The notes under the pieces were generated by a model. The model was not told where the DNA came from. It made no database searches and was given only the letters and a program-made list of their open reading frames with translations. Positions 17,282-52,871 of a stretch of 64,000 nt of DNA are shown in pieces. Position 1 is the first letter of the stretch, and every line of letters begins with the position of its first letter. The stretch is from Georgenia faecalis. GTDB taxonomy: Bacteria > Actinomycetota > Actinomycetes > Actinomycetales > Actinomycetaceae. The DNA lies in the NCBI RefSeq assembly GCF_003710105.1, contig NZ_CP033325.1, forward strand, positions 1,426,001 through 1,490,000. The letters are read 5' to 3'. A program made the position numbers and the translations under genes.

Positions 17282-17419
17282 CCGGGTGCCGTCTCCCTGT
17301 GGGTGGGGCGGTCGTGCGAGGACCGGGTGGCGGAGGCCGGCGTCGAGCTGGTCGGCGGGGTCCACCAGGTGACGACCGCGGACGAGCGGTGGACCGGCGT
17401 GGAGGTCGTGCGCGGGTAG
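17282..17419 (+). pseudogene. Remnant: duplicated 3' end of the GH3 glycosidase gene
   Basis: These 138 bp align without gaps to the last 138 bp of the GH3 gene (5797-5934), with about 125 identities. The reading frame and stop are kept: the encoded peptide is PGAVSLWVGRSCEDRV, then VELVGGVHQVTTAD, ending WTGVEVVRG. There is no start codon or upstream GH3 sequence. The two copies bracket the peptidase/amidohydrolase/ABC operon, suggesting insertion or recombination at a GH3 3' end. Confidence 0.85.
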
Positions 17420-21113: not shown

Positions 21114-21236
21114 TAAGCGATATAGCGGGTATGAACGGCGTGTCGCACAATGTCATGGATTGTCTCTCTGACCTGGGCAGACACCCCGTTTTCGGCGCTC
21201 TGATGATCCCCGAGTTACGTGCCATGTATCGTTCGC

Positions 21237-21267
21237 TGCGACACGTGTGCGACACGTATGCGACACG
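21237..21267 (+). repeat. Three TGCGACACG iterons, candidate integrase arm sites
   Basis: TGCGACACG occurs three times at 11-bp intervals (21237-21245, 21248-21256, 21259-21267), separated by TG and TA. Two copies in the same orientation and spacing lie at 52711-52730 near the other end, within an identical 24-bp segment. Such iterons near attP are typical arm-type binding sites of tyrosine integrases or excisionase sites. Confidence 0.65.
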
Positions 21268-22400
21268 GCGGGGACCGAGATGGCGGGCAAGCGGGCGGGT
21301 TTGGACAGGTCACCAAGCTGCCCTCGGGTCGGTACCGGGCCCGCTACCAGGTGCCGGACGCCTTCCCCCGGCAGTACGTCAACGGGCCGACGACGTTCGC
21401 GCGCAAGGTCGACGCCCAGGACTGGCTCGCGGCTCAACGCACGCTGATCGTCCAAGGTCTTCTCCGGCCGGCGACCGTCGCATCCCGGGTGACTCTCGCC
21501 GAGTACGCCGAGCGCTGGCTCGTCAGCAGGCGCAACTCCAAGGGCGAACCGCTGCGCCCCACGACCGCGCACGTCTACCGCCACTACCTCGACCGGCGCA
21601 TCCTCCCGGCGCTCGGGCCAAGACCGATGCCGCAGATCACGCGGGAGGTGGTCGAACGGTGGTTCGCCGGCCTCCTGCCAGATCGCCCCACGCTCCGTGA
21701 ACGCACGTACGCGCTCCTGAAGACGATGTTCAACAGCGCCGTCGACGACGGCTTGGTCCCGACAAATCCGTGCAGGATCCGAGGAGGCAGCGGCAGTCGG
21801 GCTGTCGTCCAGCCGGTCGTCCTCAACCCGGCCGAGGTCCGCGCCCTTGCCGAGGAGATGCCGGACCACCTGCGGTTGAGCATCTACCTCGGCGCCTGGT
21901 GCCAGCTCCGCTCCGGCGAGCTCCTCGAGCTGAGACGCGGCGACATCGACGATAGATCGGTCCGGATCAGCCGGGGAGTGACGTGGGTCAACTCCCAGCC
22001 GATCGTCGGACCACCAAAGACGGATGCCGGCGTTCGTGCCGTGGCCATCCCTCCGCACATCCGACCCGCCATCGACGAGCACCTCGCTACCTATGCGAAC
22101 TCGGGCAGCCACGGGCTGCTCTTCCCCGCGCGCCCAGGAATCGACCGGCAGATCTACAGCCCCACCTTCGCCGACACGTTCAAGCGAGCTGCGCTACGCG
22201 CCGGGCTCCCCGGGTCGCTCCGGTCCCACCACCTGCGGCACACCGGCCTGACGATCCTGGCGCAGGCGGGCGCAACGCTGGCCGAACTCCAGGCTCGGGC
22301 CGGACACGCCACACCCGGAACCGCGATGCGCTACCAGCACGCTGTCGCTGCGCGTGACGAGCAGATGGCGGACGCGCTCTCAGCTCTTGCCGAGGCGTAG
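21258..22400 (+). CDS. Tyrosine-family site-specific integrase
   Basis: This phage/ICE-type integrase has an N-terminal AP2-like DNA-binding segment (VTKLPSGRYRARYQVPD), a SAM-like core-binding domain (TLAEYAERWLV...) and a C-terminal catalytic domain with Arg in LRSGELLELRRGD, Lys in PKTDAGVRAV, HHLRHTG, AGHATPGT and the nucleophile Tyr in MRYQHA. ATG 21258 is the in-frame start given here, but it has no ribosome-binding site. A GGGGA-preceded ATG at 21280 reads MAGKRAG in another frame and would be the natural family N-terminus, so one base may be missing near 21290-21300. Confidence 0.92.
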   Translation: MRHGGDRDGGQAGGFGQVTKLPSGRYRARYQVPDAFPRQYVNGPTTFARKVDAQDWLAAQRTLIVQGLLRPATVASRVTLAEYAERWLVSRRNSKGEPLRPTTAHVYRHYLDRRILPALGPRPMPQITREVVERWFAGLLPDRPTLRERTYALLKTMFNSAVDDGLVPTNPCRIRGGSGSRAVVQPVVLNPAEVRALAEEMPDHLRLSIYLGAWCQLRSGELLELRRGDIDDRSVRISRGVTWVNSQPIVGPPKTDAGVRAVAIPPHIRPAIDEHLATYANSGSHGLLFPARPGIDRQIYSPTFADTFKRAALRAGLPGSLRSHHLRHTGLTILAQAGATLAELQARAGHATPGTAMRYQHAVAARDEQMADALSALAEA

Positions 22401-22799: not shown

Positions 22800-24386
22800 A
22801 TGCAAATCCTGTACGTCACCGATTTTGTCGTCACGCCCGCCGATGGAGTCAGTCTGCAGGCAGCGGTCGATGCCACCGTCGCGGTGTTGAGCAAGTGGGC
22901 CGGTGACTACGACGCGCCCATCAACGCTTCGGACCTGTTTGAGGGCGGGTACCGCGACCTGAAGGCGACGCACGGGGCGTTGAGGAAGTACGCCAAGTGG
23001 AGCCACCTGGAGTCGCCCACCGGCGACTGGGTGACCCGACTCGACGTCGTGACGATCGAGAATCACGGCAGCCAGTTCACCGCGCGCGTCACCATAGGGA
23101 TGCTCAGTGGGGTGCTGCGACTTCGCCTCGGTCTTGCCCGCGAGGTGGACGCCGCCGGGCTGAGCCCGGTCGCAGAGCCGGAGGTACGACAGCCACGGGT
23201 TCTCCTTGATCTAGTCGAGCACAGCGACCTCCGCGTCTCGAGCGACGGACAAGTGGTCGACGGACAGTATCTTCAGGCGCGCGGTATCGATAACGCCGCC
23301 CTTGTCGCGGAGGTCCTCCACGCACAGCATCGGTTGCCAGTCCTACTCGTCCACTCACGCACCAAGGAGGCGCACCAGGCGATTCGAAGAGCGGCGTCTG
23401 GCTCGATCGGTCTGGTTCGCATCGTGACTGTGGACCTACCGACGGCCCGTCAGCTACTCGCGCTCGAACCGCGCGCGCGCGTGCCCTATGCGGGCGGGTT
23501 GCTGGTGTGGTCGGATCTGGCGGTACCCGCCACCGCGGTCGGCGAGGACATCGTCAACTCGCGCGACTACGACGCCCTGCGCAAAGCTGTCATCGAACAC
23601 ATCGCGCCGCTGTCCGTGCTGACTCGCGGCAGCGACGACGTCTATCGCACAGTCCGGGAGGCTGCGCGCGTGTCGCGTGCAGACCTGGCTGCGGCCCGCA
23701 CTGCCGCGGCTGTCGAGTCCGGTAACTACAGCGCGATCATCGAGGCACTGACTCACGAGCGCGACCAGTTGGGTTTGGACCTGAACGATGCCATGGATGC
23801 ATGGAGCGAGAGCGACGCGCGCGCCCGGGAGCTCGCGAGCGAGGCCGCTCGATGGAAGGCGACCGCAGAGCAGCTGAGAATCGCGCAGAAGTACGTCGGC
23901 GCTGCCGTCATCGATGAGGCGGAGGGGCCGACGTTCGAGAACGCCCCTGAGCTCTCAACCGGCGACCCTGACTCCCTGGCGTCCCTTGCAAGTCACCTAG
24001 AAAGGGCCGCGGAAGAAAGAATTGTGTTTACCGATACGGTGCGCTCCACATGGAAGAAAGCTGACCGGTATCCTACGCCGGAGGCAATGCGGGTGGCGAT
24101 GGTAAAACTCGCGCAGGTTGCTCGCGATCTCTACGATGGGCAAGATCGCACCATGGGACACACCGACAACTGGGTCCGGGAAAACTACGACCTCAAGGTG
24201 TCACTCCAAGACGATAAGATGCCTAAAGGGTTTCGTTCGTTTACGTTTGAGGGCGAAGCGCATGATCGAACGCCTCACGTAAAAGTGAATGACGGCGTTC
24301 CGCCGCACGAGTGCGGCCGGATCTACTTCGCGTTCGATCCGAAGAACGACCGCATGATCGTCGATCACGTTGGCTTGCACTACTAG
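22800..24386 (+). CDS. Hypothetical protein with central coiled-coil region
   Basis: This 528-aa protein is not recognised. The N-terminal half (1-260) looks globular alpha/beta (QILYVTDFVVTPADGVSLQ; LPVLLVHSRTKEAHQAIRRA). Residues about 300-365 are helical and charged (RADLAAARTAAAVESGN, HERDQLGLDLNDAMDAWSE) and probably coiled coil. The last 50 residues form a compact domain (FRSFTFEGEAHDRTPHVKVN; ECGRIYFAFD; VDHVGLHY) that looks conserved and separable. GC content falls in the 3' part. It stands alone between the integrase and the carbamoyltransferase cluster. An effector or defence role is possible from location only. Confidence 0.75.
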   Translation: MQILYVTDFVVTPADGVSLQAAVDATVAVLSKWAGDYDAPINASDLFEGGYRDLKATHGALRKYAKWSHLESPTGDWVTRLDVVTIENHGSQFTARVTIGMLSGVLRLRLGLAREVDAAGLSPVAEPEVRQPRVLLDLVEHSDLRVSSDGQVVDGQYLQARGIDNAALVAEVLHAQHRLPVLLVHSRTKEAHQAIRRAASGSIGLVRIVTVDLPTARQLLALEPRARVPYAGGLLVWSDLAVPATAVGEDIVNSRDYDALRKAVIEHIAPLSVLTRGSDDVYRTVREAARVSRADLAAARTAAAVESGNYSAIIEALTHERDQLGLDLNDAMDAWSESDARARELASEAARWKATAEQLRIAQKYVGAAVIDEAEGPTFENAPELSTGDPDSLASLASHLERAAEERIVFTDTVRSTWKKADRYPTPEAMRVAMVKLAQVARDLYDGQDRTMGHTDNWVRENYDLKVSLQDDKMPKGFRSFTFEGEAHDRTPHVKVNDGVPPHECGRIYFAFDPKNDRMIVDHVGLHY

Positions 24387-25110: not shown

Positions 25111-26712
25111 ATGGACATCTTGTCGGTCAACCCAGGTCACGACGGTGCCATCGCTCACTTGAGTGAGGGTCGTCTCGTCTCATCCGTCGAGGCGGAGAAG
25201 GATTCGAACTACCGATACACCCCGATTGGCAGCCAGGACCTGCTGGCAGCGTTCGGCCGGCTCGACCGCGTGCCCGACGTGGTATGCACCGGCGGTTGGT
25301 GGCCGCGCGAGGCACGTCCGACGGGACCGCCGGTTCACGTCGGATACCGCGGCATCGACTCGGACACCATCACGGTAGAGCGCCGACGTTTGCTCGGGCA
25401 TACAGTCCCGTTCTTTTCGTCCTCGCACGAGCGATCGCACCTGCTGTGTGGGTTTGGCATGTCGCCATTTCCACAAGGCTCGTCCTGTTACGTGTTGGTC
25501 TGGGAAGGAGCAATTGGCGCATTCTACGAGATTGACCAAGATGTGAGAATTACGCGAATTGCGGACGTAATGAACCAGCCCGGAAATCGGTACGCATCGA
25601 TCTATGGTTTAGCAGATCCGACATTCCCCAAGAATGCGCCTTTCTCCCGGTTCTCGGACGCGGGAAAGCTGATGGCGCTCGCCTCGTTCTCGCACCGGTC
25701 CGCCGCCACGTCCGAGGAGGAGGAGTTAATGAATTTTCTCCTTCGCTCCGAGGATCTGCGGCTCGACATGTATGACGAGCTTGAGTCGTCGGTGTATCAC
25801 AACGTGGGCGTCGACGATGTTGAGTTCCGAAATTTTGCGGGCATCTATAGTGATAGGATTTTCGACGTTTTCTATGAGTTCGCGAAGGCGAACCTTCGTG
25901 AGGGCGTGCCCCTGGTGATCGCAGGCGGCTGTGGTTTGAACTGCGATTGGAATACCAGGTGGCGGGACACGGGTTACTTCTCGGACGTCTTTGTGCCCCC
26001 CGTCGCCAACGACTCTGGGTCGGCGATCGGGACCGCGATCGATGCTCAGCTCTACTTCACCGGTGATGCGAAGATCGAGTGGGACGTGTACTCGGGCATG
26101 GCGTTCGTGGCTGACTCTGCATTCGTGTCGGAGCGCTATGACATCCGTGCCGCCACCTGCGCCGACGTCGCTGCCATGCTGAACAGTGGACTGGTCCTCG
26201 GCTGGGTTAGTGGGAGGTACGAGATCGGGCCACGAGCTTTGGGAAATCGATCTATCCTTGCCGCACCCTTCGATGATGCAACGAGGGTTCGTCTGAACCA
26301 CATCAAGCAGCGCGAACAGTTTCGACCGATTGCGCCCGTCTGCCTTGAAGAGGATGCGGCACGGTGGTTTGGCTGCGATCGCGCAAGCCCGTATATGCTT
26401 TATACCTATCGAGCCCGCACCGAAGCCTTGGCAGCGGTGACACACGTCAACGGAACCGCTCGCATCCAGACAGTGACCTCAAGCACGAACACCGCTCTCC
26501 ACGACCTGCTCGTTGCCTTCAAACAGCTCACCGGATACGGGGTCCTCTGCAACACATCGCTGAACTTCAACGGGAAGGGATTCATTAACAACTTGACCGA
26601 TCTCGACAACTACACCTGGGATCACGGACTAGACGGCTTCGTGGTTGATGGTCGGGCTTACCTCTGTAGAGATTCAGAGCGTCGTTCGATATTCCAAACG
26701 GAGCGAGGTTGA
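25111..26712 (+). CDS. Carbamoyltransferase of the NodU/CmcH/TobZ family
   Basis: This 533-aa enzyme would transfer carbamoyl from carbamoyl phosphate (via a carbamoyl-adenylate) to a hydroxyl of a sugar or other acceptor. The N-terminal Kae1-like domain starts MDILSVNPGHDGAIAHL and contains SSSHERSHLL, VLVWEGAIGAFYE and AGGCGLNCDWN. The C-terminal YrdC-like domain has the hallmark YEIGPRALGNRSILAAP (Glu371), KQREQFRPIAP, HVNGTARIQTV and CNTSLNFNGKGF. Codon use is AT-richer than the chromosome, indicating transfer. Two glycosyltransferase-type genes follow on the same strand, so the acceptor is probably a glycan. Confidence 0.9.
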   Translation: MDILSVNPGHDGAIAHLSEGRLVSSVEAEKDSNYRYTPIGSQDLLAAFGRLDRVPDVVCTGGWWPREARPTGPPVHVGYRGIDSDTITVERRRLLGHTVPFFSSSHERSHLLCGFGMSPFPQGSSCYVLVWEGAIGAFYEIDQDVRITRIADVMNQPGNRYASIYGLADPTFPKNAPFSRFSDAGKLMALASFSHRSAATSEEEELMNFLLRSEDLRLDMYDELESSVYHNVGVDDVEFRNFAGIYSDRIFDVFYEFAKANLREGVPLVIAGGCGLNCDWNTRWRDTGYFSDVFVPPVANDSGSAIGTAIDAQLYFTGDAKIEWDVYSGMAFVADSAFVSERYDIRAATCADVAAMLNSGLVLGWVSGRYEIGPRALGNRSILAAPFDDATRVRLNHIKQREQFRPIAPVCLEEDAARWFGCDRASPYMLYTYRARTEALAAVTHVNGTARIQTVTSSTNTALHDLLVAFKQLTGYGVLCNTSLNFNGKGFINNLTDLDNYTWDHGLDGFVVDGRAYLCRDSERRSIFQTERG

Positions 26713-26794
26713 GGAGTGTGGAGACGCGACCAAGAAGAGTTGGAGCATCAGAGGACCTTGCCGGCGCGTCCGGGCACCGACCGGCGGTGTGGCG

Positions 26795-27631
26795 ATGAGC
26801 GACGGCCCACCAGGCTTCGAGGAGGACGACCGTCTGCGTTCGGACTTCATCAGGAGACTGACGCTGGCGCAGCTTGAGCGTGACTACGACTCGCCGGGGC
26901 CAGCAGATGGAGTAGGCGCAGAACCTATCCCGAGGACGCTCGTGCGGTACTGGAACGATCCGGACGACGTCCCCGCAGACGTACGCAGGTGCCTGCGTAG
27001 TTGGGAGGTGCTCCGCGACGAGGGGCTCTCGATCGAGATGTTTGGTGACGCCTCAGCGAGGAAGTACATAGCGAAACGGTATGGTCGCAGAGAGATTGCA
27101 GCGTTCGACCGGTGCCGTCATCCCGCGATGCGTAGTGACTATCTCCGGCTGTGCTACGTGCTCGCTGAGGGAGGGCTCTACGTCGATGCGGATGACGTGC
27201 TGGTAGGCGAAGGGTGGCGAGAGGTCTTCCGCGACCACACGCTGAAGGTCCAGCCGCTGTGCTACGACATCAGCATCGGTGGCATGGTGTCGGCGGAGCA
27301 GCTTAGAAGACCTGATCTTTCTACTGAGGGGCGGATTTTTTATGTGAACAACAACCCGATAGCCGCGCCGGCCGCCCACCCAGTGCTGCGGCGAGCGCTC
27401 TCGCGTGCGACAGACAGGCTTCTAGGCGAGGATCCAGCTCCCGAAATCCAATCAACTACCGGACCTGGAAACCTGACGGCGTCGCTGGCTGCTCATGCTA
27501 ACGAGAGGCAGAACGCGGGGGCCCAGCCGGACTTTTCGCTGCTCCTCACCTGGGACGCGACGGCAGAGCCTTGCTGGGACTTGGCCTACCGTGCAGACGC
27601 TCGGAATTGGCGCAACATGGATGCCTGGTAG
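26795..27631 (+). CDS. DXD-containing glycosyltransferase (Gly_transf_sug type)
   Basis: This 278-aa protein matches the GT32/capsular sugar-transferase style: IPRTLVRYWNDPDDVPADVRRCLRSW, then FDRCRHPAMRSDYLRLCYVLAEGGLYVDADD, where DADD is the nucleotide-sugar metal site preceded by the conserved A-x-SDxLR-x-x-L segment. The C-terminal part (YVNNNPIAAPAAHPVLRRAL; STTGPGNLT) fits the family. ATG 26795 is chosen because it starts the compact homologous region; upstream in-frame starts reach back into the carbamoyltransferase gene. It is 82 bp after that gene and 9 bp before the fusion protein gene, so the three form one operon. Confidence 0.82.
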   Translation: MSDGPPGFEEDDRLRSDFIRRLTLAQLERDYDSPGPADGVGAEPIPRTLVRYWNDPDDVPADVRRCLRSWEVLRDEGLSIEMFGDASARKYIAKRYGRREIAAFDRCRHPAMRSDYLRLCYVLAEGGLYVDADDVLVGEGWREVFRDHTLKVQPLCYDISIGGMVSAEQLRRPDLSTEGRIFYVNNNPIAAPAAHPVLRRALSRATDRLLGEDPAPEIQSTTGPGNLTASLAAHANERQNAGAQPDFSLLLTWDATAEPCWDLAYRADARNWRNMDAW

Positions 27632-27640
27632 AACGGCCAG

Positions 27641-29755
27641 ATGAACCTCAGCGATGTTGCGACTCCCTTACAGGCTATCGCGTTCCGTACCTGGCGCGCA
27701 CTGACCGTTCTATTGCCAGGTGGGCGCTCTAGTGCGTTTGGCCGAGGAGCCGATCAGATCGGTGCAATCCTGGTCGTAAATTTGGATAGGCAGCCAAGTC
27801 GATGGACTCGAGTCTGCGCGGAACTGCGTCGATTCCGGACGTCTGATGGCATCCGCTTGACCTCCATCACGAGACGACTAGCGGCCATCGATGCTCGTGA
27901 CGGTCGTGCAGTCGCAGCGACCGCCGACGTAGATCCGATGTACCGGATCGGTGACCAGCTTTATGTACAGCCAGACGCTCGCCTCGCGCATTCCTTCGCG
28001 GCGTCGGAGCCTGTGCGGATGACTCGCCAGGAGGTGGCGGTCGCGCGGTCACACGTGGAGGCCTGGAAGGAGGTGGTGTCGGGATCCCACGACTTCGTTC
28101 TCATCCTTGAGGACGATGCGTGGTTCAAGCCCGGCGCGAGAACTGCCATCGATCGTGGATGGCGCGCGGCCCTCGGTCGGTTTGCGGACAACGAGCGCCC
28201 GCAACTCCTCTACCTGTCGTACTCAGATGCTGGCGGCACTGCAGTGCGGCACGAGGTGTGTGCGGATCTGTTCCGCCCCGTGCGAGGCCTGTGGTTTCTC
28301 TCGGGGTACGTCCTCTCCCGCGAAGGTGCAGCGGCGCTTCTCCGAGCGATGCCAGTCGTCGGGCCCGTGGATCTCTGGATGAACTACCGGTTCCCAGAGG
28401 TTAAGGCGCTTGCGCTCTCGCGTCCGGCGATCGCTCAGAGGCACGACGTGACATCTGACAACGCATATTCGATGATGCCGTTTCTGGCTCGAGCGGGCAT
28501 TGTTGATGGGGTCTCCGAAGCTAAGCCGACCGGCGGAGCTGTATGCGGTCCGGTGCTGGCGTGGTCGGGAGGTAGGGAGAACGAGTGTCTCGCTATGGCG
28601 CTCTCGATGCTTGGAATGCGTGTGCGTGCCTTCGATGGTCATGAGGTTCCGATGGATCATCGTGAGCTGTCGGAGGTCCTAAAGACTTTCGATGCCCTCA
28701 TCGATCCTCCATTAGCTCCGGCGGCGCTTACTGCTGCTGCAGCCGACGATCGTTTCTTATGGCTGCGGGAAGCTGATGCGCGCGCCCCGGATGTGGTCGA
28801 CTCATTGCTCCTCCCGCCACGTCGTTCTGCAGTCCTTCGTCTCAATGACCAGGGCGGAGGTACTTGGCGCGACATTTGCTCTCTGCTCCAAGTCTCCGAG
28901 CCGGTCGCCCCGTTCCCGTCTGGTGTTCCGCGTGAGTTCCGCATGTTTCGCGACGGTCGATTGCCCACAGATCTAAATGTCGAGGCACCGTCCCGGCGCG
29001 AAAGCATGCCCATAGACGATTCGCCGTGGGCTTTACCGACGTCAAGCAGATGGCGGCCGTCCCGAAAGAAGGATTCAATCCCGAATAGCAGCGGATGTGT
29101 CGTGGTTGAGGCGACCATGTCGGAGATATCGCCAGAGTTCCGCGTGCTCACTGAAACGTTCCCTGGAAACCTGTCGTCGTTCGCGGCGGGGGGCCTCGAA
29201 CATCGCGAGGACGGCGTTCGAGTTGTGATCGACGTCTGTAAAGGGGAGGGGCGACCCTATCAATCTGGCGCGTTCGTCAGCGCTCGGTCCTTCTCCTATG
29301 GGCGCTTTCAAGCACAAATCCAGGCCGTCTCGGGTTCGGGACTCGTAACGGGTTTCTTTCTTCATCGCGGCTCCCCAAGGCAGGAGATCGACATCGAGTT
29401 CGCAGGTTCCGATCCTCGGCGGATGCTGACCAACGTCTTCTTCAACCCGGGGGATGAGGGCACAGAAATGGACTACGGCTACCGCGGTTCTCCCTGTTGG
29501 ATTGATCTCGGCTTCGACGCCACTGAGGGAGTTCACGAGTACGCCATCGATTGGAGACCGGACCGTGTGACCTGGCTCGTCGATAGAGCGGTCGTCCATG
29601 AGCGAGCCAGTTGGGACCCGACCCCGATTCCTCATCTAGCTATGCGTGTCTACGGCAATGTGTGGGCGCCGCGTTCTGAGGAACTGGCCGGAAGGGTAGA
29701 TGAACGTGCGCTCCCCGCATCCGCCAGCTTCAGGAACGTGGTTGTGGCCGACTAA
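27641..29755 (+). CDS. GT25 glycosyltransferase / sulfotransferase-like / GH16 fusion protein
   Basis: This 704-aa protein has three parts. Residues about 40-290 resemble family GT25: ILVVNLDRQPSRW, RQEVAVARSHVEAWKEVV and the metal site LILEDDAWF (Glu157-Asp159). Residues about 295-460 loosely resemble a sulfotransferase (GPVLAWSGGRENECLAMALS; ICSLLQVSEPVAPFPSGVP); this call is tentative. Residues about 495-704 are a GH16 glucanase domain with the catalytic EIDIEF (Glu582, Asp584, Glu586), GFFLHRGSPRQ and HEYAIDWRPDRVTWLVD. No signal peptide or membrane segment is obvious. Synthesis and cleavage activities in one chain are unusual. Confidence 0.83.
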   Translation: MNLSDVATPLQAIAFRTWRALTVLLPGGRSSAFGRGADQIGAILVVNLDRQPSRWTRVCAELRRFRTSDGIRLTSITRRLAAIDARDGRAVAATADVDPMYRIGDQLYVQPDARLAHSFAASEPVRMTRQEVAVARSHVEAWKEVVSGSHDFVLILEDDAWFKPGARTAIDRGWRAALGRFADNERPQLLYLSYSDAGGTAVRHEVCADLFRPVRGLWFLSGYVLSREGAAALLRAMPVVGPVDLWMNYRFPEVKALALSRPAIAQRHDVTSDNAYSMMPFLARAGIVDGVSEAKPTGGAVCGPVLAWSGGRENECLAMALSMLGMRVRAFDGHEVPMDHRELSEVLKTFDALIDPPLAPAALTAAAADDRFLWLREADARAPDVVDSLLLPPRRSAVLRLNDQGGGTWRDICSLLQVSEPVAPFPSGVPREFRMFRDGRLPTDLNVEAPSRRESMPIDDSPWALPTSSRWRPSRKKDSIPNSSGCVVVEATMSEISPEFRVLTETFPGNLSSFAAGGLEHREDGVRVVIDVCKGEGRPYQSGAFVSARSFSYGRFQAQIQAVSGSGLVTGFFLHRGSPRQEIDIEFAGSDPRRMLTNVFFNPGDEGTEMDYGYRGSPCWIDLGFDATEGVHEYAIDWRPDRVTWLVDRAVVHERASWDPTPIPHLAMRVYGNVWAPRSEELAGRVDERALPASASFRNVVVAD

Positions 29756-30127: not shown

Positions 30128-30469
30128 GTGCGCGCGGCCATCCCTCACCGGGTCGTGGGAACCAGCGAACGTAGGAAGCGGTCGCGGCCGGCCCGGGACT
30201 GGGTGACGGCGGCTACACCCCGCGCGCTCGGGACTCCCCTGCAGGCCCGTTGCGAGGAGTGCGGTCTTGAGTTCAGTGCGCGGCGGCGTGACGCTCGGTA
30301 CTGCTCGACGACCTGCCAATCTCGGAGCCGGCGGCGCGTCGCACGCCGGTGCGCGAATTGCCGGAAGCCGCTGCCGTCGTCCATGCGCTCCAACGCCCTG
30401 TACTGCTCCGGCCGCTGCAGGCAGAAGGCACACCGCGCCCGGGCCAAGATCTCGGGTGGCTCGCAATGA
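30128..30469 (+). CDS. Small double zinc-finger protein
   Basis: This 113-aa protein contains two Cys4 units, CEECGLEFSARRRDARYCSTTC and CANCRKPLPSSMRSNALYCSGRC (both split here by the length rule but contiguous), with a basic linker between them. Such MYND/zinc-ribbon-like pairs bind nucleic acid or protein. Its stop overlaps the relaxase start (ATGA), so it is translationally coupled and may be an accessory DNA-binding factor of mobilization. GTG 30128 is the most upstream start; GTG codons further in are also possible. Confidence 0.65.
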   Translation: MRAAIPHRVVGTSERRKRSRPARDWVTAATPRALGTPLQARCEECGLEFSARRRDARYCSTTCQSRSRRRVARRCANCRKPLPSSMRSNALYCSGRCRQKAHRARAKISGGSQ

Positions 30470-33400
30470 TGAGCATGTGCGTGCGTTACGCGGGGGAGTC
30501 CTACACCTACTTGCTGGACTCGGTCACCACCGACCACGGCCGCTCGGGTGTCAACCCGATGACGCGCTATTACGCGACGCATGGCACACCGCCGGGGACC
30601 TGGCTGGCCAGCGGGCTCGCGGGACTGGACAAAGGGCAGGGGCTCGCACCGCGCAGTTTCGTGACGCCCGTCCAGATGGAACGGCTCTTCGCCAACGGTG
30701 CCGATCCTGTGACTGGCGAAGCGCTTGGCAGGTCCCCGCACGTCTACGCCGCCGACGCCGAACGGCGCCGTCCCGTCGCAGGCTTTGACTCCACGTTCAC
30801 GGTCCCGAAGTCGGTCAGCGTGCTTTGGGCGCTGGCTGATGCCGGTACGCGGGATGTGATCTATGAGTGCCACCGGCAGGCGATCACCGACGTCGTGGCT
30901 CTGATCGAGCGTGACGTTGCCCGCACTCGGATCGGTACGAACGGCGTCGCGCAGGTCGAGGTCAACGGGGTGATCGCGGCGGCGTTCGACCACTGGGACT
31001 CGCGCGAGAACGACCCCAACCTCCACACGCACGTGGTGATCGCCAACCGGGTCCAGGCCGCCGACGGCCGGTGGCGAACTCTCGATTCTCGCGCGATTCA
31101 TCGCGCGGCCGTGGCCATGTCCGAGCGCTACGACACCCTCCTGGCCGATCACCTCACCCGCCGGCTCGGGCTTGCTTGGGAGTACCGGGAGCGTGGACCG
31201 CGGCGCAATCCCGCCTTCGAGCTGAGCGCCATCCCGCAACCACTCCTCGACTGCTTCTCGCAGCGATCGGTGTCCATCGATGCCGAAGCAGACCGCCTCA
31301 TCGAGCGGTACCAGAGCGACCACGGCCGCCGGCCCGATGCACCGACCGTCCTCCGTCTGCGCCAGCAGGCCACCCTCGCCACCCGCGGCGCGAAGGAGGT
31401 CCGCAGCCTCGAGGAGCTCACCGCCGAGTGGAGAGAGCGCGCCGACACCGTTCTGGGTGCGGAGTCGCTCGCGTGGACCGGGCGCGTTCTCGCCGACCCT
31501 CGTACCCGCCTTCCGGACCCGCCCCATCCTTCGGCGTGGGCAAATGAGGCCGCCACCGCCGTGCTGGCTGTCCTCGCTCGGAAGCGTTCGACGTGGACGG
31601 CGTGGAACATCGAGGCGGCGGCCGCCCGCGCGCGCAAGCCACACCGGTTCGACACCGCGGACGAGCGCGACCAGGCCGTCGCAACCGTCGTCGCCGAGGT
31701 GGAACGACGCTCGGTCCGCCTCACTCCGCCGGAAGCCGCGCCGACGCCCGCGGAGCTGCAGCGAAGGGACGGCACCAGTGCCTTCCGTGCTTTCCGCGGC
31801 GAGGTCTACACCGCCCACACCACGCTCGACGCCGAGGCGCGACTCCTCACCGCTGGACGTGATCGGAACGGACCGGTGCTCGACGTCGACCATCTCGACC
31901 AGGGCGGGCTGTTCGGTGACCAAGCCTCCGCGGTCCGGTCCATCGGCTTCTCGTGCCGGGTGCTGGACGTGCTGGTCGGTCCGGCCGGCTCGGGCAAGAC
32001 CCACACGCTCCCGCGCTGCGAGCCTCCTGGGAAGGCACTCACGGGTGGGGATCCGTTGTCGGCCTGGCGCCGTTGGCCGCGGCGGCCGAGGTTCTCGGAG
32101 CCAGTCTCGGCGTGGAGACCGAGAACACGGCCAAGTGGCTCGTTGAGCATGACGCCGAAGCCGAGCGGCGGCGTCGCCTTGCCCGCGCGCGCAGCATCCT
32201 CCCGGGCACGGTGACTCGGGGGAGTGTGCGTGAGGTTGCCGCCCACATCCAGCGGCTCACCCAAGAGGTCGAGCGGTGGCGCTTCCGTGCGGGGCAGCTG
32301 GTGATCATCGACGAGGCCTCCCTGGCCGGAACCGCAAGTCTCGACCGGATCGTTGCCTGCGCGGGAGAGGCCGGGGCGAAGGTGCTCCTCGTGGGGGACT
32401 GGGCCCAGCTGTCCGCCATCGACGCGGGCGGCGCCTTCGGCCTCCTGGTCCGTGACCGCGGCACGGGAGCACCCGAGCTCGGCACCGCCCGCCGCTTCAG
32501 CCACGCCTGGGAGAGAGAGGCAGCGGCGCTGCTGCGGGTGGGCGACCCGGACTGTCTCCGCTTCTACGAGCACCACGGCCGGGTCCGCGAGGGGGACCAC
32601 GACGACATGGTCGACGGCGCCTACGCGACCTGGCGCGTGGACGAGCTCGCCGGGAAGCGATCCCTGCTCATCGCCGGCGACGGCGACACCGTTCGCGCGC
32701 TCAACGAACGCGCGCGCGCCGAGCTCGTCGTCGCTGGCCGCGTCGTCCCCGACGGCAGTCGCTTGCGCGATGGGCTCTTCGCAGGCGTCGGTGATCGCGT
32801 CGTCACACGCCGCAACGACCGCCGCCTCACAGTCGGGCCAAGGTGGGTGAAGAACGGCGACACGTGGATCGTCACCGCCCGCCACAACGACGGTGCCTTG
32901 ACCGTCAAGCGGCCCCGCGGTGGGCCGAGCGTCACCCTGCCCGCAACGTACGTCCGTGGGCACGTCGAGCTGGGGTACGCCACCACGGCGTTCCGCGCCC
33001 AAGGCGCAACCGTCGACACAGCGCACGCGATCGTCACCGGCCCCGGCCTGACACGCGAAGTGCTCTACGTGATGCTCACCCGCGCCCGTGAGGCGAACAC
33101 GGCCTACGTCTGCACCGACCGACCCGTCGAGCCCCTCCATGGGTTCTCTGAGGCACCCACCACAGGTAGGGGTGTCTTGACGAGCGTCATGGAACGTCGG
33201 AGCCGCTCTCTCCGCACACGAGACGAACGAGCGGGAACTCGACGAGGCAAGCTCCATCCGCACCCTCGCCGCCGAGTACGACACCATCGCCCAACTCGCT
33301 CAAGCAGAGCGCTGGACTGCACTCCTCACCCGCGCGGGCCTCGCCCCCGACCAAGTCGACGCTGTCACGGCATCGGGCGCCCTCGGTGCCCTCGGAGCGG

Positions 33401-33990
33401 CGCTGCGCCGCGCCGAAGCACGAGGCATCGCACTCGAAGACGACCTCCCGTTCATTATCAAGCGGGCGGACACCGGCGCTGAGGACCTCGCCGCCGTACT
33501 CCACGAGCGTGTCGACCGCTGGACAGAAGCGTCGCCCCCTGCGACCACCGCGGCCGCCGCGGCAGATCGCCTGATCCTCGGCTTCCTCCCGGTTGCCACT
33601 ACCGATGACGCCGCCATGGCGGCAGCGCTGACTGAACGTGCGCGCCTTATGGAACTGCGCGCGGAGCTCCTTGTTGAGCGCGCTCGGGCTGCAGGCTCGC
33701 CATGGCTTAGGCACCTCGAGGAAGACCTCGGCACCGCGACGGATACGGTCCCGTGGTCTTCAGCTGCCCGAATGGTCGCCGCTTACAGGGAGCGCCATCA
33801 GGTCAGCGACCCCGACCGGTCCCTAGGCCAGATCGACTCGGCGGCCACCCAGCAACGGCGCGAAAGCAGGATGGTCGGCTTCGCCTTAGCGCGGCTCAGC
33901 GAGCCGCTTCCGTCGGATGCGGGGCGGATTACGCAGTCGGGCGTCGCGGCCATGTCGACCCAACCAGATGCGGGCTCGATCGGGCGGTAG
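30466..33990 (+). pseudogene. MobF-family (TrwC/TraA-like) relaxase-helicase, two frameshifts
   Basis: The combined frames encode about 1,174 residues, typical of actinobacterial MobF relaxases. The N-terminal relaxase has the Tyr pair in MTRYYATHG, DSTFTVPKSVSVLWALAD and the HUH motif NLHTHVVIAN (His187, His189). The helicase part has Walker A VGPAGSGKTHT (Lys511), VIIDEASLAGT and GYATTAFRAQGATVDTAH. After Walker A the frame shifts near 32009-32020 (next frame ALRASWEGTHGWGSVVGLAP) and returns to the original frame near 33195-33205 (GAALSAHETNERELD). The shifts compensate, so only the helicase domain is out of frame. Decay or sequence errors are both possible. Confidence 0.85.
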
Positions 33991-42988: not shown

Positions 42989-44101
42989 CTACCTGAAGAC
43001 GTCAGCGAAGGTGTAGGCGAGCGACAGCGCTTCCTGGTTGCCAGCAGCGGCGAAGGTCGCGAGCAACCGCCGGAAGGCGTCTGCGCCTACGGCGTCGAAG
43101 AGCACGAGTGGACGCTGCACGGTGAGCAGTCGTTGTAGATACGTGACGACGATGTCGCCTGCCAGAGGATCACCTGCGTAACTGCTGTCGGGGGGCACCG
43201 CGTCGGCGACTGCCTGCAAGGCGCTTGCCTCCTTCAGAGGTGCGAGGAACACCATCGCTTTGACGGCCGGGTGCACGCACTGCGGCGCGTGCGTCGACGC
43301 GCACCTGCTCAGCACCGGCATCGCGAGGTCGGCGAAGCCCGCGTCAGGCACCGCGAGCTCCACTTTCGGATCGCGCCTACTTTCGAACGCGCCACTCGCA
43401 AAGTAGACCTGTTGCGCGACCTCGCGGCAGATCAGCACGGCGCCCTGAATCTCGGCGAGCTGGGCTTCCGTCAGGTTCGACGCCGCCAACGAGAGCTTCC
43501 CTGGATCGCGCCCCAGGCGCGCTGCCGAGGCGTCGGCGGCCGACCACAATAGCGCGAACGCCCGCGCTTGTATTCCGACTTCGGTCCCAGCGAGATACCG
43601 GCGGGCCGACTTTGCGAACCGCGAGACCGCCATGGGTCGAGTCGGCGCCTCGTCACACCATCGCTCGACGGTTGCGGACGCGAACGGTGTCCTCGCCACA
43701 ACGGCGAGATACGTCAGCAGTTCGACCGTCACGTCGGCGCCTAAGTCGCCATCGCCGGGGTCGCCGCCCTTGTGGAGCCGTGCGAGCACGTCGTCCACGA
43801 CCGCCGGCGCGGCCGCGGCCGCCAACTGTCCAAGAAGGACCGAACGCACGCGCTCGTCTTGCTCGGCGAGCACGAGATCGCCGACTGTTGACGCTCTCTG
43901 TTCCTCGTCCTGGTCGGCGTAGATCGCTAGCACGCCCTCGGCCGCCCGCATTCTCACGCCTGGGCTGTCGTCGTGGAGCCCGGCCGCGACTGCGCCGGTG
44001 ATCGCGGCGGCGTCATCGCCCGAGCGCCAATCTCGCCGGGCGAGTAGCGCAACGAGGCCGCCGATGGCCGCGTCACGGACTCCGGGGCTCCACGCGATCA
44101 C
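42989..44101 (-). CDS. HEAT-repeat-like protein, partner (or split C-terminus) of the STAND ATPase
   Basis: This 370-aa, Ala-rich helical protein starts MIAWSPGVRDAAIGGLVALL and continues with HEAT-like units (DDSPGVRMRAAEGVLAIYAD; DERVRSVLLGQLAAAAAPAV). GTG 44101 overlaps the TGA of the upstream STAND gene (GTGA), giving translational coupling. Alternatively it is the C-terminal sensor region of that protein split by a 1-nt frameshift: restoring one base near 44105-44112 would read through as about 1,605 residues. No catalytic motif is visible. Confidence 0.75.
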   Translation of the reverse strand: MIAWSPGVRDAAIGGLVALLARRDWRSGDDAAAITGAVAAGLHDDSPGVRMRAAEGVLAIYADQDEEQRASTVGDLVLAEQDERVRSVLLGQLAAAAAPAVVDDVLARLHKGGDPGDGDLGADVTVELLTYLAVVARTPFASATVERWCDEAPTRPMAVSRFAKSARRYLAGTEVGIQARAFALLWSAADASAARLGRDPGKLSLAASNLTEAQLAEIQGAVLICREVAQQVYFASGAFESRRDPKVELAVPDAGFADLAMPVLSRCASTHAPQCVHPAVKAMVFLAPLKEASALQAVADAVPPDSSYAGDPLAGDIVVTYLQRLLTVQRPLVLFDAVGADAFRRLLATFAAAGNQEALSLAYTFADVFR

Positions 44102-47100
44102 TGCAGCAGCCCGCCGGTGTCGCTGTTGGCGGCGTTCAGGAGCACGGCTGCTACGCGCTCGCCTACCGGCGTTCCGGGGCTGACCCGTGGGTCGCAAGCT
44201 AGAGTCGCCGCTGCGTCGACCAGCAACAGAGCCAACCTCGGATGCACCGTCGGGCACTCCGCGAACACGATGTCCGCGACTTCTTCGAAGGTCTCCAGCA
44301 GCCGGCGCTTGTGCTCGGGCCGCTCGTCGCGGCCGTTCCTAGTTGCCTGTAGTTCGTCGCTTAACAGGTCCACCGCGGTGGCGACCGGGGACGGAAAGGC
44401 GACACCCTCGGCAGCGAGCGAGTCCACAATCGACCAGGGCGTGAAGGATGCCTCGACTTGCAGGCGCGGTTGGACCTTCGGCGGGCCTTCAGCGCCGAGC
44501 TTGCCGAGCCGACCCACCAGCTTCGACGAGGTGATCGTGCCGGGACGAAGGCATCCGAGCAACGCGTCCTTCTGCCGCGGGTACCCGCCGTTCGCGTCCA
44601 TCAGCGAGTGCGCGCGCAGCACCGCCGCCTGTAGGCGCGAGGCAATGGCCGGGTCGTCGCCACCTTCGTCCGCGAGCGCTGCGAGCAGACCCGCCGCAGC
44701 GGCATGGGTTTCGGGGTGGCCAAGCAGCGCCCCGGAGTCGAGCGCGTCGAGCAGGGCGCGACCCAGCGCGACCGAGTTGGCGGGCGAGGCCATCAGCGCC
44801 GCCCAAGCTGCCGCGTTGTGCAGCCGGCCGACTAAGACAGTCACAGCCGGTACCGCGTCGCCCGCATTCGAGGCGCTTAGCGCAGCGCCCAGGCCCGTCG
44901 CAATCTTCTCTCCCTCCCCCCGAGCCGTCATTGACATGTCCCTGCCGTACCGGAGGTACCCGGACGCCCCATGGGCGAAGATCGGCCACTCGCCGTCCTC
45001 GAACTCATACGCTTCGTGCTCTGCGAGGTCGCAGAAAATCTGAGTCGCCGTCTGCAGGTCAGCAGCACAAATCGCGTCGAACGCCTCCGCGAGCAAATAC
45101 GCGCCGTGCTCCGCCTGCTGCCGACGGGTCTCGTTCAGCGACAGCACCGGGCCACCACCGAGACTCACCTGCTCATCACGTGTTTCTTCGAACGTCAGCA
45201 CCGCGCGGGCGGTCTCGCGCGCGAGCTTAGGGTCCACGCTGGCGAGGCCCTCGACCGATTCCGCAAGCCACGTCAGCACGGTGCCGCCCCACTCGCGCAT
45301 GGCTGGCTCGTCATCGAGCATCCGCCGGACCGCATCCCGCGCCGCCGTACTCATCTTGACCGCGCTCGGCAGCTGGCGCGCTGCGGCGCCGGCGAGGCTT
45401 TCCATCTGCTTCGGGTTTTCACGGCACGCGTCGAGCAGCGCCACGAGAGAGAGGCAGCGGTCTTCGGCGCCAGGACCGTCTGGCTGCAACGGGAGCCGGA
45501 GCTGCAGACCGAGCAGGATGTCGGCGGCCAGTGCCCCGTCGACGTACGACCCCAACGCGTGATCGGCGAACCGCCGGGCGAGCGCCGCGAGGGCGACCGC
45601 CGCGACGGCAGCGTCGGGGAGAACTGCCGGGGCGCGCAGGCCACCGACAAGCCGGCGGACAAACTCCTGCGATGCCGACAGCCCCCCCGCCGTGCCCGCC
45701 GTGCCGGCAGGGGGCGCGAGCTCGCGCAGGTCGTTCCGGTCGCGGACAAGACATAGCACCCTCGCCGCGAATGCGAGCGACGCGAGCACGTGGTGCGATG
45801 CTGACACCTCCAGGCACAGCGGCCAGAACGCCCCGACAGCGCGGCGCTCCCACAACACGTCGGCGAGCAGATCGAAGCTCGGACGAGCGACCAGCGGTAG
45901 TGCCGGGTCCGCGTCGATCGCCTTGATCGCCCGCGAAGGATCGACCGGGTCGAGCAGCACATACAACGTCGTGGCGTAGTCGAACAGAATGTTGTGCGAA
46001 AACGCCAGAATGCGCCGACCGGTCGGCACCGCCCCCGGCTCGATTGCGAGGACGTTCTCGCTGAGCATCGCCCCGACTGCGGCGCTGTCGACGGCAGTTA
46101 CGAGCGGCTCGGCTTCGATCGCCCGCAGCGACCGCTCCGCGGCCATATGCGCGCACAGCCGCGCGAGCAGCGCCTCCCTCGCGGTCTGATCATCGGCGCG
46201 GATTCGCTGGTCCCAGTACGCCTCGAGCAGACCGACGCGCCCCCGGACCGCGAGCAGCTCGTCCTGCTGCGACGCCGTTAACGTCTCGACGAGCACCGCG
46301 GCAAGCCGGAGGTTGAACGGGTTACGTAGCAGGGCACGCAGTTCCGGCCCTGCCTTCTCGAGCAACGACGCGAGCGCCAGTGGCGCGGTGACGGCCGCGT
46401 CGATCTCGTCGTCAGTCAAGTCCCCGACGACCAGGTGCCGCACGCCCGCCAGCCGCGGATCCAGCGCAGACTCGTCGGCCGACAGGGGCGCGCCTCCGAA
46501 CGCGGTTCGCAGAGCATGGTTGTTCAGGGCGTCGAACGTCCGCGCGGACGCGACGACCTGCCACCGCGAACCGCTCAGGCCGTGGACTACGTCGCTGAGA
46601 AACTGGCGGTCCTCAGGGCCGCGCAGCGCGTCGACGCCGTCGATCACCAGCACGGCGGGGGGGCCCATCCATCCCCGCAGCACGGCCACAAGAGGGGCGT
46701 CCAGAGGCGCCTTGTTCGCCCCCGCCAGGTCACTCGCGCGGAGCGCAATTACTGGCTGGTCCGCCGCGCGCGCCGCGGCGAAACTTTGCGTGACCGAGGA
46801 CTTCCCGGCGCCCGCGTCACCCACGATGAGCACGTTCCCGTCGCCAGCGTCGGCCGCCAACACGGTCGTCGCCTTGCGTGGGATGCGCAGCCCGCCCGGC
46901 ACGGGAAGAGCAGCATCGCGCGCGAACGCCGCGAGATTCGCCGCTGACAGCTCGCGCAGCGTCTCGATGTCACCGGCGTACCTGGTCGGCGGCGCAGGGT
47001 GGACCCCGCGGCGGGAAAGCGCGACGCCGATGGAGGCGCGGTCGCGCCACTCGCGAGCCGCCGACGCCGCCTGCCCCTGTTGGACGAGAACGGGCCACGC

Positions 47101-47802
47101 GGCGTCCGCGTCCGCGGGCGACAGCCCCAGGGCGAGCGTCGCCACAGCGGCGGCATGCTGCGGCGCCCCCTCGCTCGCGTCGACGGTGATCACCCGAAGT
47201 GCTCGGAACAGCCCACGAAGGTCCTCGTTGTCGGCGGCGTTCCCGGTCGCAGCTTCCCACATCGGTTTGACGTGCGAGATGACCACGTCCAGCGCCTTGC
47301 GCTGCTTCACGGTGAGCTCGTGCCCGAGCTGCGAACCCGGCGGCTGCGAAGCCGCACGCGATAGCGCCGTCGGCAGATCCTTCCGCACCGTCGCCGGTGC
47401 CGTGCTGTCAGTGCACAGCACGAGCACGTCTCGCGCCGCGTCGACGGACCGGTCCGAGCCGTCGCGGACCGGCAGCCGTCCGTTCACGTACTGACCTACC
47501 ACCTGCTCTAGCGCCTCCGCGAGCGGGCTGTCGGCGGCCTTCCCGAGACCGAGCCCCGCCTTGACCTGAAAGAGCGCGAAGCACCCGGTATCGGCCTCCA
47601 CCGCCACGTCGTCCATCGCGAATCCGGTTTGCGCGCCGACACGCACTACGATTCCCGCAAGGTCCCCGGCGAGCAGCGGTCGCTCAGCGACCAAAGCCGC
47701 CGCGGCCCATGCGAAGACGCGGTTCTGCAGTCCGATGCCACCGGCCCCCGCGGCGCCGCCGGCCGACGCCGCCGATATCACCGAATCTCGCCGCCCGGCC
47801 AT
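44098..47802 (-). CDS. Avs-like STAND NTPase with N-terminal PD-(D/E)xK-like nuclease domain
   Basis: This 1,234-aa protein starts with a domain resembling the DUF4297/Cap4-type dsDNA endonuclease: RVFAWAAAALVAERPL and MDDVAVEADTGCFALFQVKAG, with Asp64/Asp65, Glu69 and Gln79-Val-Lys81 in PD-(D/E)xK order. A STAND/NACHT ATPase follows: Walker A VGDAGAGKSSVTQ (Lys334), Walker B VLVIDGVDAL (Asp388), then winged-helix-like and long helical-repeat regions (sensor part). Antiviral STAND (Avs) proteins sense phage proteins with the repeats and activate the N-terminal effector; the similarity here is in architecture, not proven homology. It is coupled to the HEAT-like gene downstream. Confidence 0.82.
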   Translation of the reverse strand: MAGRRDSVISAASAGGAAGAGGIGLQNRVFAWAAAALVAERPLLAGDLAGIVVRVGAQTGFAMDDVAVEADTGCFALFQVKAGLGLGKAADSPLAEALEQVVGQYVNGRLPVRDGSDRSVDAARDVLVLCTDSTAPATVRKDLPTALSRAASQPPGSQLGHELTVKQRKALDVVISHVKPMWEAATGNAADNEDLRGLFRALRVITVDASEGAPQHAAAVATLALGLSPADADAAWPVLVQQGQAASAAREWRDRASIGVALSRRGVHPAPPTRYAGDIETLRELSAANLAAFARDAALPVPGGLRIPRKATTVLAADAGDGNVLIVGDAGAGKSSVTQSFAAARAADQPVIALRASDLAGANKAPLDAPLVAVLRGWMGPPAVLVIDGVDALRGPEDRQFLSDVVHGLSGSRWQVVASARTFDALNNHALRTAFGGAPLSADESALDPRLAGVRHLVVGDLTDDEIDAAVTAPLALASLLEKAGPELRALLRNPFNLRLAAVLVETLTASQQDELLAVRGRVGLLEAYWDQRIRADDQTAREALLARLCAHMAAERSLRAIEAEPLVTAVDSAAVGAMLSENVLAIEPGAVPTGRRILAFSHNILFDYATTLYVLLDPVDPSRAIKAIDADPALPLVARPSFDLLADVLWERRAVGAFWPLCLEVSASHHVLASLAFAARVLCLVRDRNDLRELAPPAGTAGTAGGLSASQEFVRRLVGGLRAPAVLPDAAVAAVALAALARRFADHALGSYVDGALAADILLGLQLRLPLQPDGPGAEDRCLSLVALLDACRENPKQMESLAGAAARQLPSAVKMSTAARDAVRRMLDDEPAMREWGGTVLTWLAESVEGLASVDPKLARETARAVLTFEETRDEQVSLGGGPVLSLNETRRQQAEHGAYLLAEAFDAICAADLQTATQIFCDLAEHEAYEFEDGEWPIFAHGASGYLRYGRDMSMTARGEGEKIATGLGAALSASNAGDAVPAVTVLVGRLHNAAAWAALMASPANSVALGRALLDALDSGALLGHPETHAAAAGLLAALADEGGDDPAIASRLQAAVLRAHSLMDANGGYPRQKDALLGCLRPGTITSSKLVGRLGKLGAEGPPKVQPRLQVEASFTPWSIVDSLAAEGVAFPSPVATAVDLLSDELQATRNGRDERPEHKRRLLETFEEVADIVFAECPTVHPRLALLLVDAAATLACDPRVSPGTPVGERVAAVLLNAANSDTGGLLQ

Positions 47803-49016: not shown

Positions 49017-49220
49017 GATGCCCCACAGCGGGTCCCCGCCAAACTCCGAACGCTGCGCGGCAGTGCCGAGCGTGCGTCCGCACTCCAAGCAGTGTGGTTG
49101 ACCGCGCGGGAACTCATCAGCTTCAGTTGCCGACATCCAACCCGCGCCCGCGATCCTTGCGGTCGACCGCCGCTTTCCGTGTCCCCAGGACGCCGCCCGG
49201 TATACGTCCGGCACGCCAGA

Positions 49221-49913
49221 ATGAGGTACCCACCCCGCCGGCTCCCATCGAGCGCGACGAAAGGCCGCCATGACCGCACAAGGCATCGACATTACCGCCT
49301 GAGCACCCGACAGATCCTGCGCCTGTCCGCATCGCTGCTCACCGAGCTCATTGCTCGGGGCGTCCTCCGCTCACGCAATGCCCCAGTCGGCGACCTGGCC
49401 GAGACGCTCGTGGCCCGCGCCTACAACGGCCAGCTGCCCGGCCGGTCGGAGAGATCTTGGGACGTGCGCACGTCCGACGGCCTCCGCCTGCAGGTAAAGA
49501 GCCGCATGGTTGGCCCGCACACCTCTGGCTCGCAGGTGTACTCGGTATTCCGAAGTTGGGACTTCGACGCCTGCGTATTCGTCCAGATTGACTCTCACAC
49601 GTACGACGTCGTCCACGCCGCGGAGGTACCCGCCGCAGGCGTGCAACAGGTGGCCGGCTGGAGTAGCCACACCAACGGCGCCCGGGTGCGGGTTAATCAG
49701 CACCTGGTTGTCCTCCCTGGAGCGAAGGACGTCACGGCACTCCTGCGCGCCGCCCTCGACACCGTCGACAGCGCAGACCGTCCAAGCGTGTCGTTATCTC
49801 CGCCTGTAACACCTCCTGCGGGTGCCGGAGCATGCCTGTGCGGGTGCGAGCAGGTCCCGAAGCCTGGACGGGATTTCGTCGTCACGCACGACCGGCGAGC
49901 CGAGCTCAGGTGA
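49221..49913 (+). CDS. Predicted PD-(D/E)xK-like protein (QVK motif)
   Basis: The supported part begins LSTRQILRLSASLLTELIAR and has GDLAETLVARAYNGQLPG, then WDVRTSDGLRLQVKSRMV, where Glu, Asp and Gln-Val-Lys follow nuclease-fold order, then FRSWDFDACVFVQIDSHTYD. It resembles small restriction-endonuclease-like proteins. The tail CLCGCEQVPKPGRDFVVTHD is a zinc-ribbon-like piece that seems cut short. The start is uncertain: ATG 49221 is in frame, but ATG 49270 (MTAQGIDITA, with GAAAGG upstream) is better placed and runs into a stop after ten codons in the other frame, so a 1-nt frameshift near 49298 is suspected. Confidence 0.65.
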   Translation: MRYPPRRLPSSATKGRHDRTRHRHYRLSTRQILRLSASLLTELIARGVLRSRNAPVGDLAETLVARAYNGQLPGRSERSWDVRTSDGLRLQVKSRMVGPHTSGSQVYSVFRSWDFDACVFVQIDSHTYDVVHAAEVPAAGVQQVAGWSSHTNGARVRVNQHLVVLPGAKDVTALLRAALDTVDSADRPSVSLSPPVTPPAGAGACLCGCEQVPKPGRDFVVTHDRRAELR

Positions 49914-50062
49914 TCCGCGAGCACTACGGCAGCATCGCCGCCTGCGTCCGAGCCCACCAGGACGGCTGACCAGCGAGACGTGCACGTGGCGCGATCGCGC
50001 CGCGCGAGTCGGCGTCGAGCGGCCGCGCTAGATCGGCGGCATGTCCGGCGGTCGGAACTCGC

Positions 50063-50091
50063 TTGACATAGGCTCCTCGCACACCTTTAAG
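50063..50091 (+). promoter_or_regulatory. Promoter of the Mrr-type nuclease gene
   Basis: TTGACA (50063-50068) is followed after 17 bp by TTTAAG (50086-50091). The start codon GTG 50104 lies 12 nt further with AAGAAGGG in between, so the transcript would have a very short leader. Confidence 0.5.
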
Positions 50092-50103
50092 AAGGGCTGC
50101 ACC

Positions 50104-52706: not shown

Positions 52707-52710
52707 TCGC

Positions 52711-52730
52711 TGCGACACGTGTGCGACACG
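52711..52730 (+). repeat. Two TGCGACACG iterons, right arm
   Basis: Copies at 52711-52719 and 52722-52730 keep the 11-bp period seen at the left end. The 24-bp segment 52707-52730 is identical to 21233-21256. Confidence 0.65.
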
Positions 52731-52757
52731 AGGTGGCGTTTTCGCAGGTCAGATGGG

Positions 52758-52831: not shown

Positions 52832-52871
52832 AGCGTGCGCCACACCGGCGTCGCCGCACTAGGCTAGCGCC

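Follow-up and report, generated by a model that had tools for sequence, protein, structure and literature searches.

Carbohydrate-modifying genes are known to be carried by mobile DNA, as in phage seroconversion and other glycan-modifying cassettes. A comparable case is described here from Georgenia faecalis, in a stretch of 64,000 nucleotides (contig NZ_CP033325.1, positions 1,426,001 to 1,490,000), which is called the window. According to its open reading frames (ORFs) and Pfam domains, positions 25111-29755 contain three co-directional genes, which encode in order a class III O-carbamoyltransferase (CT), a glycosyltransferase (GT) and a 704-aa fusion of GT25, sulfotransferase-like and GH16 domains. 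A first-pass annotation had described three consecutive co-directional genes with a GC content below that of the chromosome, and both points were borne out. The GC content of the trio is 60.4%, compared with 68.5% for the window and 70.4% outside the element that holds the trio, and it is below that of all 297 other segments of the same size tested, the lowest in the window. Compared with phage seroconversion cassettes, the trio has no membrane GT or flippase, and it occurs in at least 15 phyla.

By comparison across genomes, the three-gene grouping is not chance, since the proteins are kept together across phyla, and the trio is one conserved, horizontally moving unit. From its domains and motifs, we infer a carbamoylated saccharide or glycoconjugate as its product. 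The trio travels on plasmids, in prophages, in integrase elements and in defence islands. Its predicted product would make cells inhospitable to phages or rival mobile DNA, a reading for which we consider the chances evenly balanced.

The three enzymes

The CT gene (25111-26712, + strand) matches Carbam_trans_C (E 6e-54, 182.6 bits) and Carbam_trans_N (E 2e-23, 84.2 bits), both above the gathering score, and its best profile matches are GdmN, the novobiocin CT and TobZ. The Kae1-like and YrdC-like architecture and the HDG, HxxxH, GPRALG and NTSxN motifs are common to the trio CT and to TobZ, GdmN and NodU. However, the trio CT differs from these enzymes in its own clade, an SSHERSH motif, the glutamate of a WEG motif and the link to GT and GT25-GH16 genes. 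Residues H10, H106, H110, D301, R375, R380, K399 and R405 are intact in the window copy where checked, with E132 at an aspartate position, and the HDG and HxxxH residues, D301 and the checked YrdC-like residues are invariant in the alignment of trio CTs. The metal-binding residues of class III enzymes, two histidines and two aspartates, are highly conserved (PMC9633730). In the alignment of these ligands, H106, H110 and D301 are invariant, while E132 of WEG aligns with the aspartate of homologues from the same order. SSHERSH and WEG (Glu for Asp, residue 132) are shared by the trio CTs and their lone relatives, and by their sequences the CTs with these motifs are a distinct subfamily of class III carbamoyltransferases. 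According to published work (PMC9633730), the acceptor is usually polar in class III CTs that have no dimerisation domain, and a sugar would fit this.

In the CT tree, the trio CTs form a single clade with full SH-aLRT support, separate from lone relatives found in Rhizobium, Streptomyces, Planktothrix, Salmonella and a gut contig. One CT found with a trio (locus L082) falls outside this clade, being 45% identical and on a long branch. This CT may be a second recruitment, but the adjoining DNA contains Ns and its fusion is divergent too. A rhizobial Nod-factor reading was rejected, as the CT scores 256.9 bits against the cut-off of 1000 for the NodU equivalog of NCBIfam, and the trio is found far beyond rhizobia.

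The relatives of the CT bring in another explanation, a small natural product, which the first-pass annotation had also named as an alternative. The trio would be a minimal natural-product cluster, and the small saccharide that it releases, carbamoylated and formerly sulfated, would serve as an antibiotic or signal. The best solved relatives (GdmN, the novobiocin CT and TobZ) modify antibiotics, and the nearest lone CTs belong to clusters with nonribosomal peptide synthetase genes (Streptomyces tendae), with thymidylate synthase, amidohydrolase and MFS genes (Salmonella plasmid) or with sulfotransferase, GT and ABC transporter genes (Planktothrix). However, the trio CTs stand in their own clade, no transporter or resistance gene recurs beside them, and they lie among defence and mobile genes instead of biosynthetic genes, which leaves this explanation distinctly unlikely.

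The surroundings of some lone CT relatives were also recorded. On the 33-kb Salmonella plasmid pSA20083530.2 (L015, 13456-18993), thymidylate synthase, ITPase, amidohydrolase and MFS genes accompany the CT, and the group resembles a small nucleoside-type metabolite cluster. The gut "phage" scaffold MT837218 (L016, 3104-6996) has a CT relative between genes that by eye look like a SagB-like oxidoreductase and an MFS transporter, a possible mini-cluster. On a Planktothrix plasmid (L126, 2771-14056), a cyanobacterial cluster combines a CT with glycosyltransferase, sulfotransferase, dioxygenase and ABC transporter genes, with chemistry like that of the trio.

The GT gene (26795-27631, + strand) is placed at ATG 26795, as in its homologues, and not at TTG 26645. 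It encodes a GT32-like protein with a DXD motif, which matches Gly_transf_sug with E 8e-05. The structural model (pLDDT 94) has a GT-A fold, with YeGT, PaToxG and Och1 as nearest structures. Fold and DXD motif are common to these GT32 and related GT-A enzymes and the trio GT (Z 17.6-18.1, rmsd 3.3-4.2 over 194-210 residues), but the identity is just 18-20%.

The fusion gene (27641-29755, + strand) encodes a GT25 domain at about residues 39-285 with an EDD motif, a sulfotransferase-like domain at about 300-434 and a GH16 domain at about 486-704 with an EIDIE motif. The GT25 part matches Glyco_transf_25 (E 1e-07, 32.3 bits against a cut-off of 24), and EDD is present in 76 of 76 fusions. The GH16 part matches with E 9e-28 (97.4 bits), and E/D/E of EIDIE are likewise kept in all 76; its model superposes on lichenase 3i4i with Z 30.8 and rmsd 1.5 over 204 residues. 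The EIDIE motif and the fold are thus common to the fusion and the GH16 lichenases and transglycosylases (1,3-1,4-beta-glucanases, Crh5), whereas in the trio the GH16 domain sits behind GT25 and sulfotransferase-like domains and has no export signal recognisable by eye. Inspection by eye, with no predictor run, shows neither a signal peptide nor a membrane segment in the trio proteins, and the enzymes presumably act in the cytoplasm.

Between GT25 and GH16, relatives of the fusion match Sulfotransfer_4 with up to 35 bits and keep a loop like G-S-G-x-x-S; the fold of this middle domain is assigned from Pfam only, as GH16 matches took up the structure search. The window copy lacks the P-loop-like motif for binding 5'-PAPS, and the letters of the P-loop are lost in its clade. 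The earlier suggestion that the glycan is perhaps sulfated thus holds in part: the sulfotransferase-like domain is real in relatives, but the nucleotide-binding loop is degenerate in the window copy. The idea of sulfation applies to the fusion family, but probably not to this copy.

Spread and arrangement of the trio

With the fusion as query, a scan of 84,980 species (one genome per species) gave 113 relatives, of which the best 80 were taken further. GT and fusion were mapped in 80 loci, with plasmid, viral and window loci included, and the CT is present in 55 of them. At least 15 named phyla are represented among the 79 usable fusions, including Actinomycetota, Chloroflexota, Bacteroidota and Pseudomonadota, although many of the fusions are from bins, where contamination is possible. 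The fusion tree mixes phyla freely. In the window's own order, the trio exists in 1 of 297 genomes, and the nearest kin of the window copy are from a Chloroflexota bin (65%) and an Acidimicrobiaceae bin (62%). Plasmid-borne trios were found by tblastn in Rhizobium leguminosarum, Sphingobium, Rhizorhabdus and the IncC plasmid pCf164_LMB-1 of Citrobacter freundii, with CT identities of 60-65%; a search for the trio in E. coli with the Citrobacter DNA gave no megablast match in 5,426 genomes. From the above, together with the integrase elements, P2-like prophage and defence islands described below, the first-pass proposal of a mobile cargo for building and carbamoylating a glycan (the product being predicted) is well supported.

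Three arrangements were observed: CT-GT-fusion, GT-fusion-CT and a form with divergent CT. The gap between GT and fusion has a median of 24 bp. Of the 30 loci with the order GT-fusion-CT, 22 have a 4-bp overlap at the junction of fusion and CT. The CT is missing in 20 loci with enough flanking sequence. When 12 CT-less genomes were searched for a CT elsewhere, 11 had none and one had only a 32% homologue. As the CT is sometimes absent, the GT and the fusion are, by these comparisons, the core, joined by the CT in about two thirds of loci. Deletion can give rise to CT-less forms, as seen in Pseudomonas sp. JAI120, whose GT-fusion stretch is 98% identical to that of P. brenneri but has lost the CT and the upstream genes. 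No fourth partner recurs in an all-against-all comparison of flanking ORFs, which returned only recombinases, transposases and ATPases, and the idea of the trio as part of one larger conserved cluster was rejected on this basis.

The incomplete presence of the CT, with mostly genome-wide absence where tested, could suggest that three unrelated genes merely move together without a joint function. Such hitchhiking is disfavoured and extremely improbable in view of the dedicated CT clade, the several gene orders, the 4-bp overlaps and the retention in at least 15 phyla.

Defence context and the 31.5-kb element

Within 4 kb of the trio, 120 genes hit 414 PADLOC families, compared with 25 for 110 random genes; this control comes from the window's own order only, and the counts are of families rather than loci and are inflated by redundant, overlapping models. 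Gabija models of the GajA type are hit by 6 flanking genes and by none of the random genes. The enrichment of defence families beside the trio is clear, but it is not a measured quantity. The neighbours include GajA/OLD ATPases, UvrD helicases, GmrSD, TIR and ABC-3C proteins. The CT, GT and fusion themselves gave no hit in PADLOC 2.0.0 at E 0.1, and no description of the trio was found in the open-access literature, with newer or subscription reports being possible.

The gpQ-gpA interval of E. coli P2-like phages is an antiviral hotspot (PMC9122126), and the systems described there include nucleases, NLR-like, TIR, SIR2 or membrane proteins, unlike the trio. A trio next to P2-like prophage genes comes from the IMG/VR contig L097, in which terminase, portal and DNA methyltransferase genes are followed directly by GT-fusion-CT, and the contig ends after the CT. 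Compared with the P2-like prophage hotspot (old/tin region), the trio is placed just after the portal and DNA methyltransferase genes, and the gpA side is off the contig. We know of no hotspot system that consists of carbohydrate enzymes alone.

Another example is P. brenneri (L021), where the 5' part of umuC is followed by an integrase gene, by three ORFs of unknown family and then by the trio, which is apparently the only cargo of this element. In two Pseudomonas, umuC is interrupted by islands (L021, 1390-12389; L022, 8593-21976). In L022, 12 kb lie before the 3' part of umuC, and a RelA/SpoT-like protein recognised by eye is also encoded in the island.

In the window, the trio belongs to a 31.5-kb insert flanked by the two perfect copies of a 24-bp direct repeat (21233-21256 and 52707-52730). 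This insert is a mobile island rich in candidate defence genes. The left copy, a candidate att site, overlaps the annotated start of a tyrosine integrase gene (21219-22400, + strand; Phage_integrase 4e-17, SAM-like N-terminus 2e-09), whose true start is probably downstream of the repeat. The right copy lies 23 bases from the 3' end of a tRNA-Leu gene (52754-52832, - strand), and the repeat was presumably used as the att site, although no empty site came to light. A tRNA-Phe was rejected as the end of the element, as no repeat is found there and the repeat adjoins tRNA-Leu.

Directly upstream of the trio is a candidate defence protein weakly similar to HEC-07 (22800-24386, + strand; E 4e-10). 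A TrwC-type relaxase-helicase recognised by Pfam follows at 30349-33482 (+ strand), split into two overlapping frames (30349-32214 and 31953-33482); the split reflects either a pseudogene or an error in the sequence, and the element may therefore be unable to mobilise itself. A second broken gene is the candidate defence gene PDC-M54A (42989-47802, - strand), split over two frames. Near the right end, a protein like methyl-directed restriction enzymes (49092-49913, + strand; PADLOC mREase_II, E 3e-26) and an Mrr-type restriction endonuclease (50041-50946, + strand) were identified. Both nucleases are inside the repeats, together with the integrase, relaxase, HEC-07 and PDC-M54A genes, in agreement with the earlier description of an element otherwise rich in nucleases. 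Outside the element, a direct repeat of about 122 bp exists at 5806-5927 and 17291-17412, 11.5 kb apart.

Restriction genes of the GmrSD and Mrr types near some loci could point to the modification of nucleic acids, in which a glycosylated or carbamoylated base protects or marks DNA or RNA, as is known from the phage enzyme that carbamoylates 5-hydroxymethylcytosine (5hmC). A related class III CT carbamoylates 5hmC in DNA (PMC8670742), and such a substrate would be universal across phyla. However, the loci have no recurrent gene for a base hydroxylase, thymidylate synthase or kinase, the GTs of the trio are like GT32 and GT25 and unlike DNA glucosyltransferases, and GH16 has no role in the scheme. 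We consider this explanation very improbable.

Possible roles of the product

The first-pass annotation had proposed that an altered surface glycan blocks phage adsorption: lipopolysaccharide (LPS), capsule or wall glycan would be modified as by serotype-converting prophage genes. GT25 is the LPS glycosyltransferase family, the mobile and prophage context fits superinfection exclusion, and cyanophage carbamoyltransferases are found in phage clusters to which metabolite synthesis is ascribed, alongside others ascribed to surface glycans. In loci of up to 22 kb, however, no flippase, polymerase or lipid-carrier GT recurs near the trio, nor do a membrane GT or an exporter recur beside it. GH16 is fused to GT25 in a protein in which no export signal was seen by eye (no predictor run), and the envelopes of the actinomycetotal, chloroflexotal, bacteroidotal and pseudomonadotal hosts differ widely. 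As the host envelopes differ and export and carrier genes are missing, an intracellular product is likelier than a specific change of surface glycan, and the adsorption proposal is now less favoured and rather unlikely. The neighbourhood comparison proposed with it shows that antibiotic or capsule clusters are not the constant setting of the trios, which have no recurrent fourth gene and lie among mobile and defence genes.

The favoured explanation is the exclusion of phages or rival elements by way of an intracellular product. Its most far-reaching form would be an anti-phage system of carbohydrate-active enzymes alone, with an intracellular carbamoylated (in some lineages sulfated) saccharide or glycoconjugate that protects very different bacteria and needs no lineage-specific partners; this specific form is a serious candidate, though the balance tilts somewhat against it. 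The enzymes would act in succession in the cytoplasm. A short saccharide or glycoconjugate would be assembled by both GT domains, trimmed or transglycosylated by the GH16 jelly-roll, and sulfated by the sulfotransferase-like domain where the P-loop is intact, which excludes the window copy. The CT would then cap a sugar hydroxyl with a carbamoyl group from carbamoyl phosphate and ATP, via carbamoyl-AMP. In the least certain step, the product, or a partner decorated with it, would turn the cell against phages or rival mobile DNA, and this would account for a cassette that travels with defence genes.

Several points weigh against this explanation. Islands and prophage hotspots carry non-defence cargo too, the control for the defence enrichment is a single actinobacterial order and redundant models inflate the family counts. 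Moreover, the trio has no toxic or sensor domain of a known defence type, lone CT relatives sit in natural-product clusters, and the clade of the window copy has lost the P-loop of the sulfotransferase. Whether the trio serves to exclude phages or rival elements could be judged either way with about equal right. The composition, carbohydrate enzymes only, is new as far as PADLOC 2.0.0 and the open-access literature go, with newer or subscription reports possible.

If the explanation is true, bacterial immunity would in this case come from sugar chemistry and not from nucleases, NAD depletion or membrane toxins, and the trio would be a small pathway that can be transplanted and has a product open to isolation. 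Even without a role in defence, a helper-free three-gene glycan pathway across at least 15 phyla would point to a substrate common to all bacteria.

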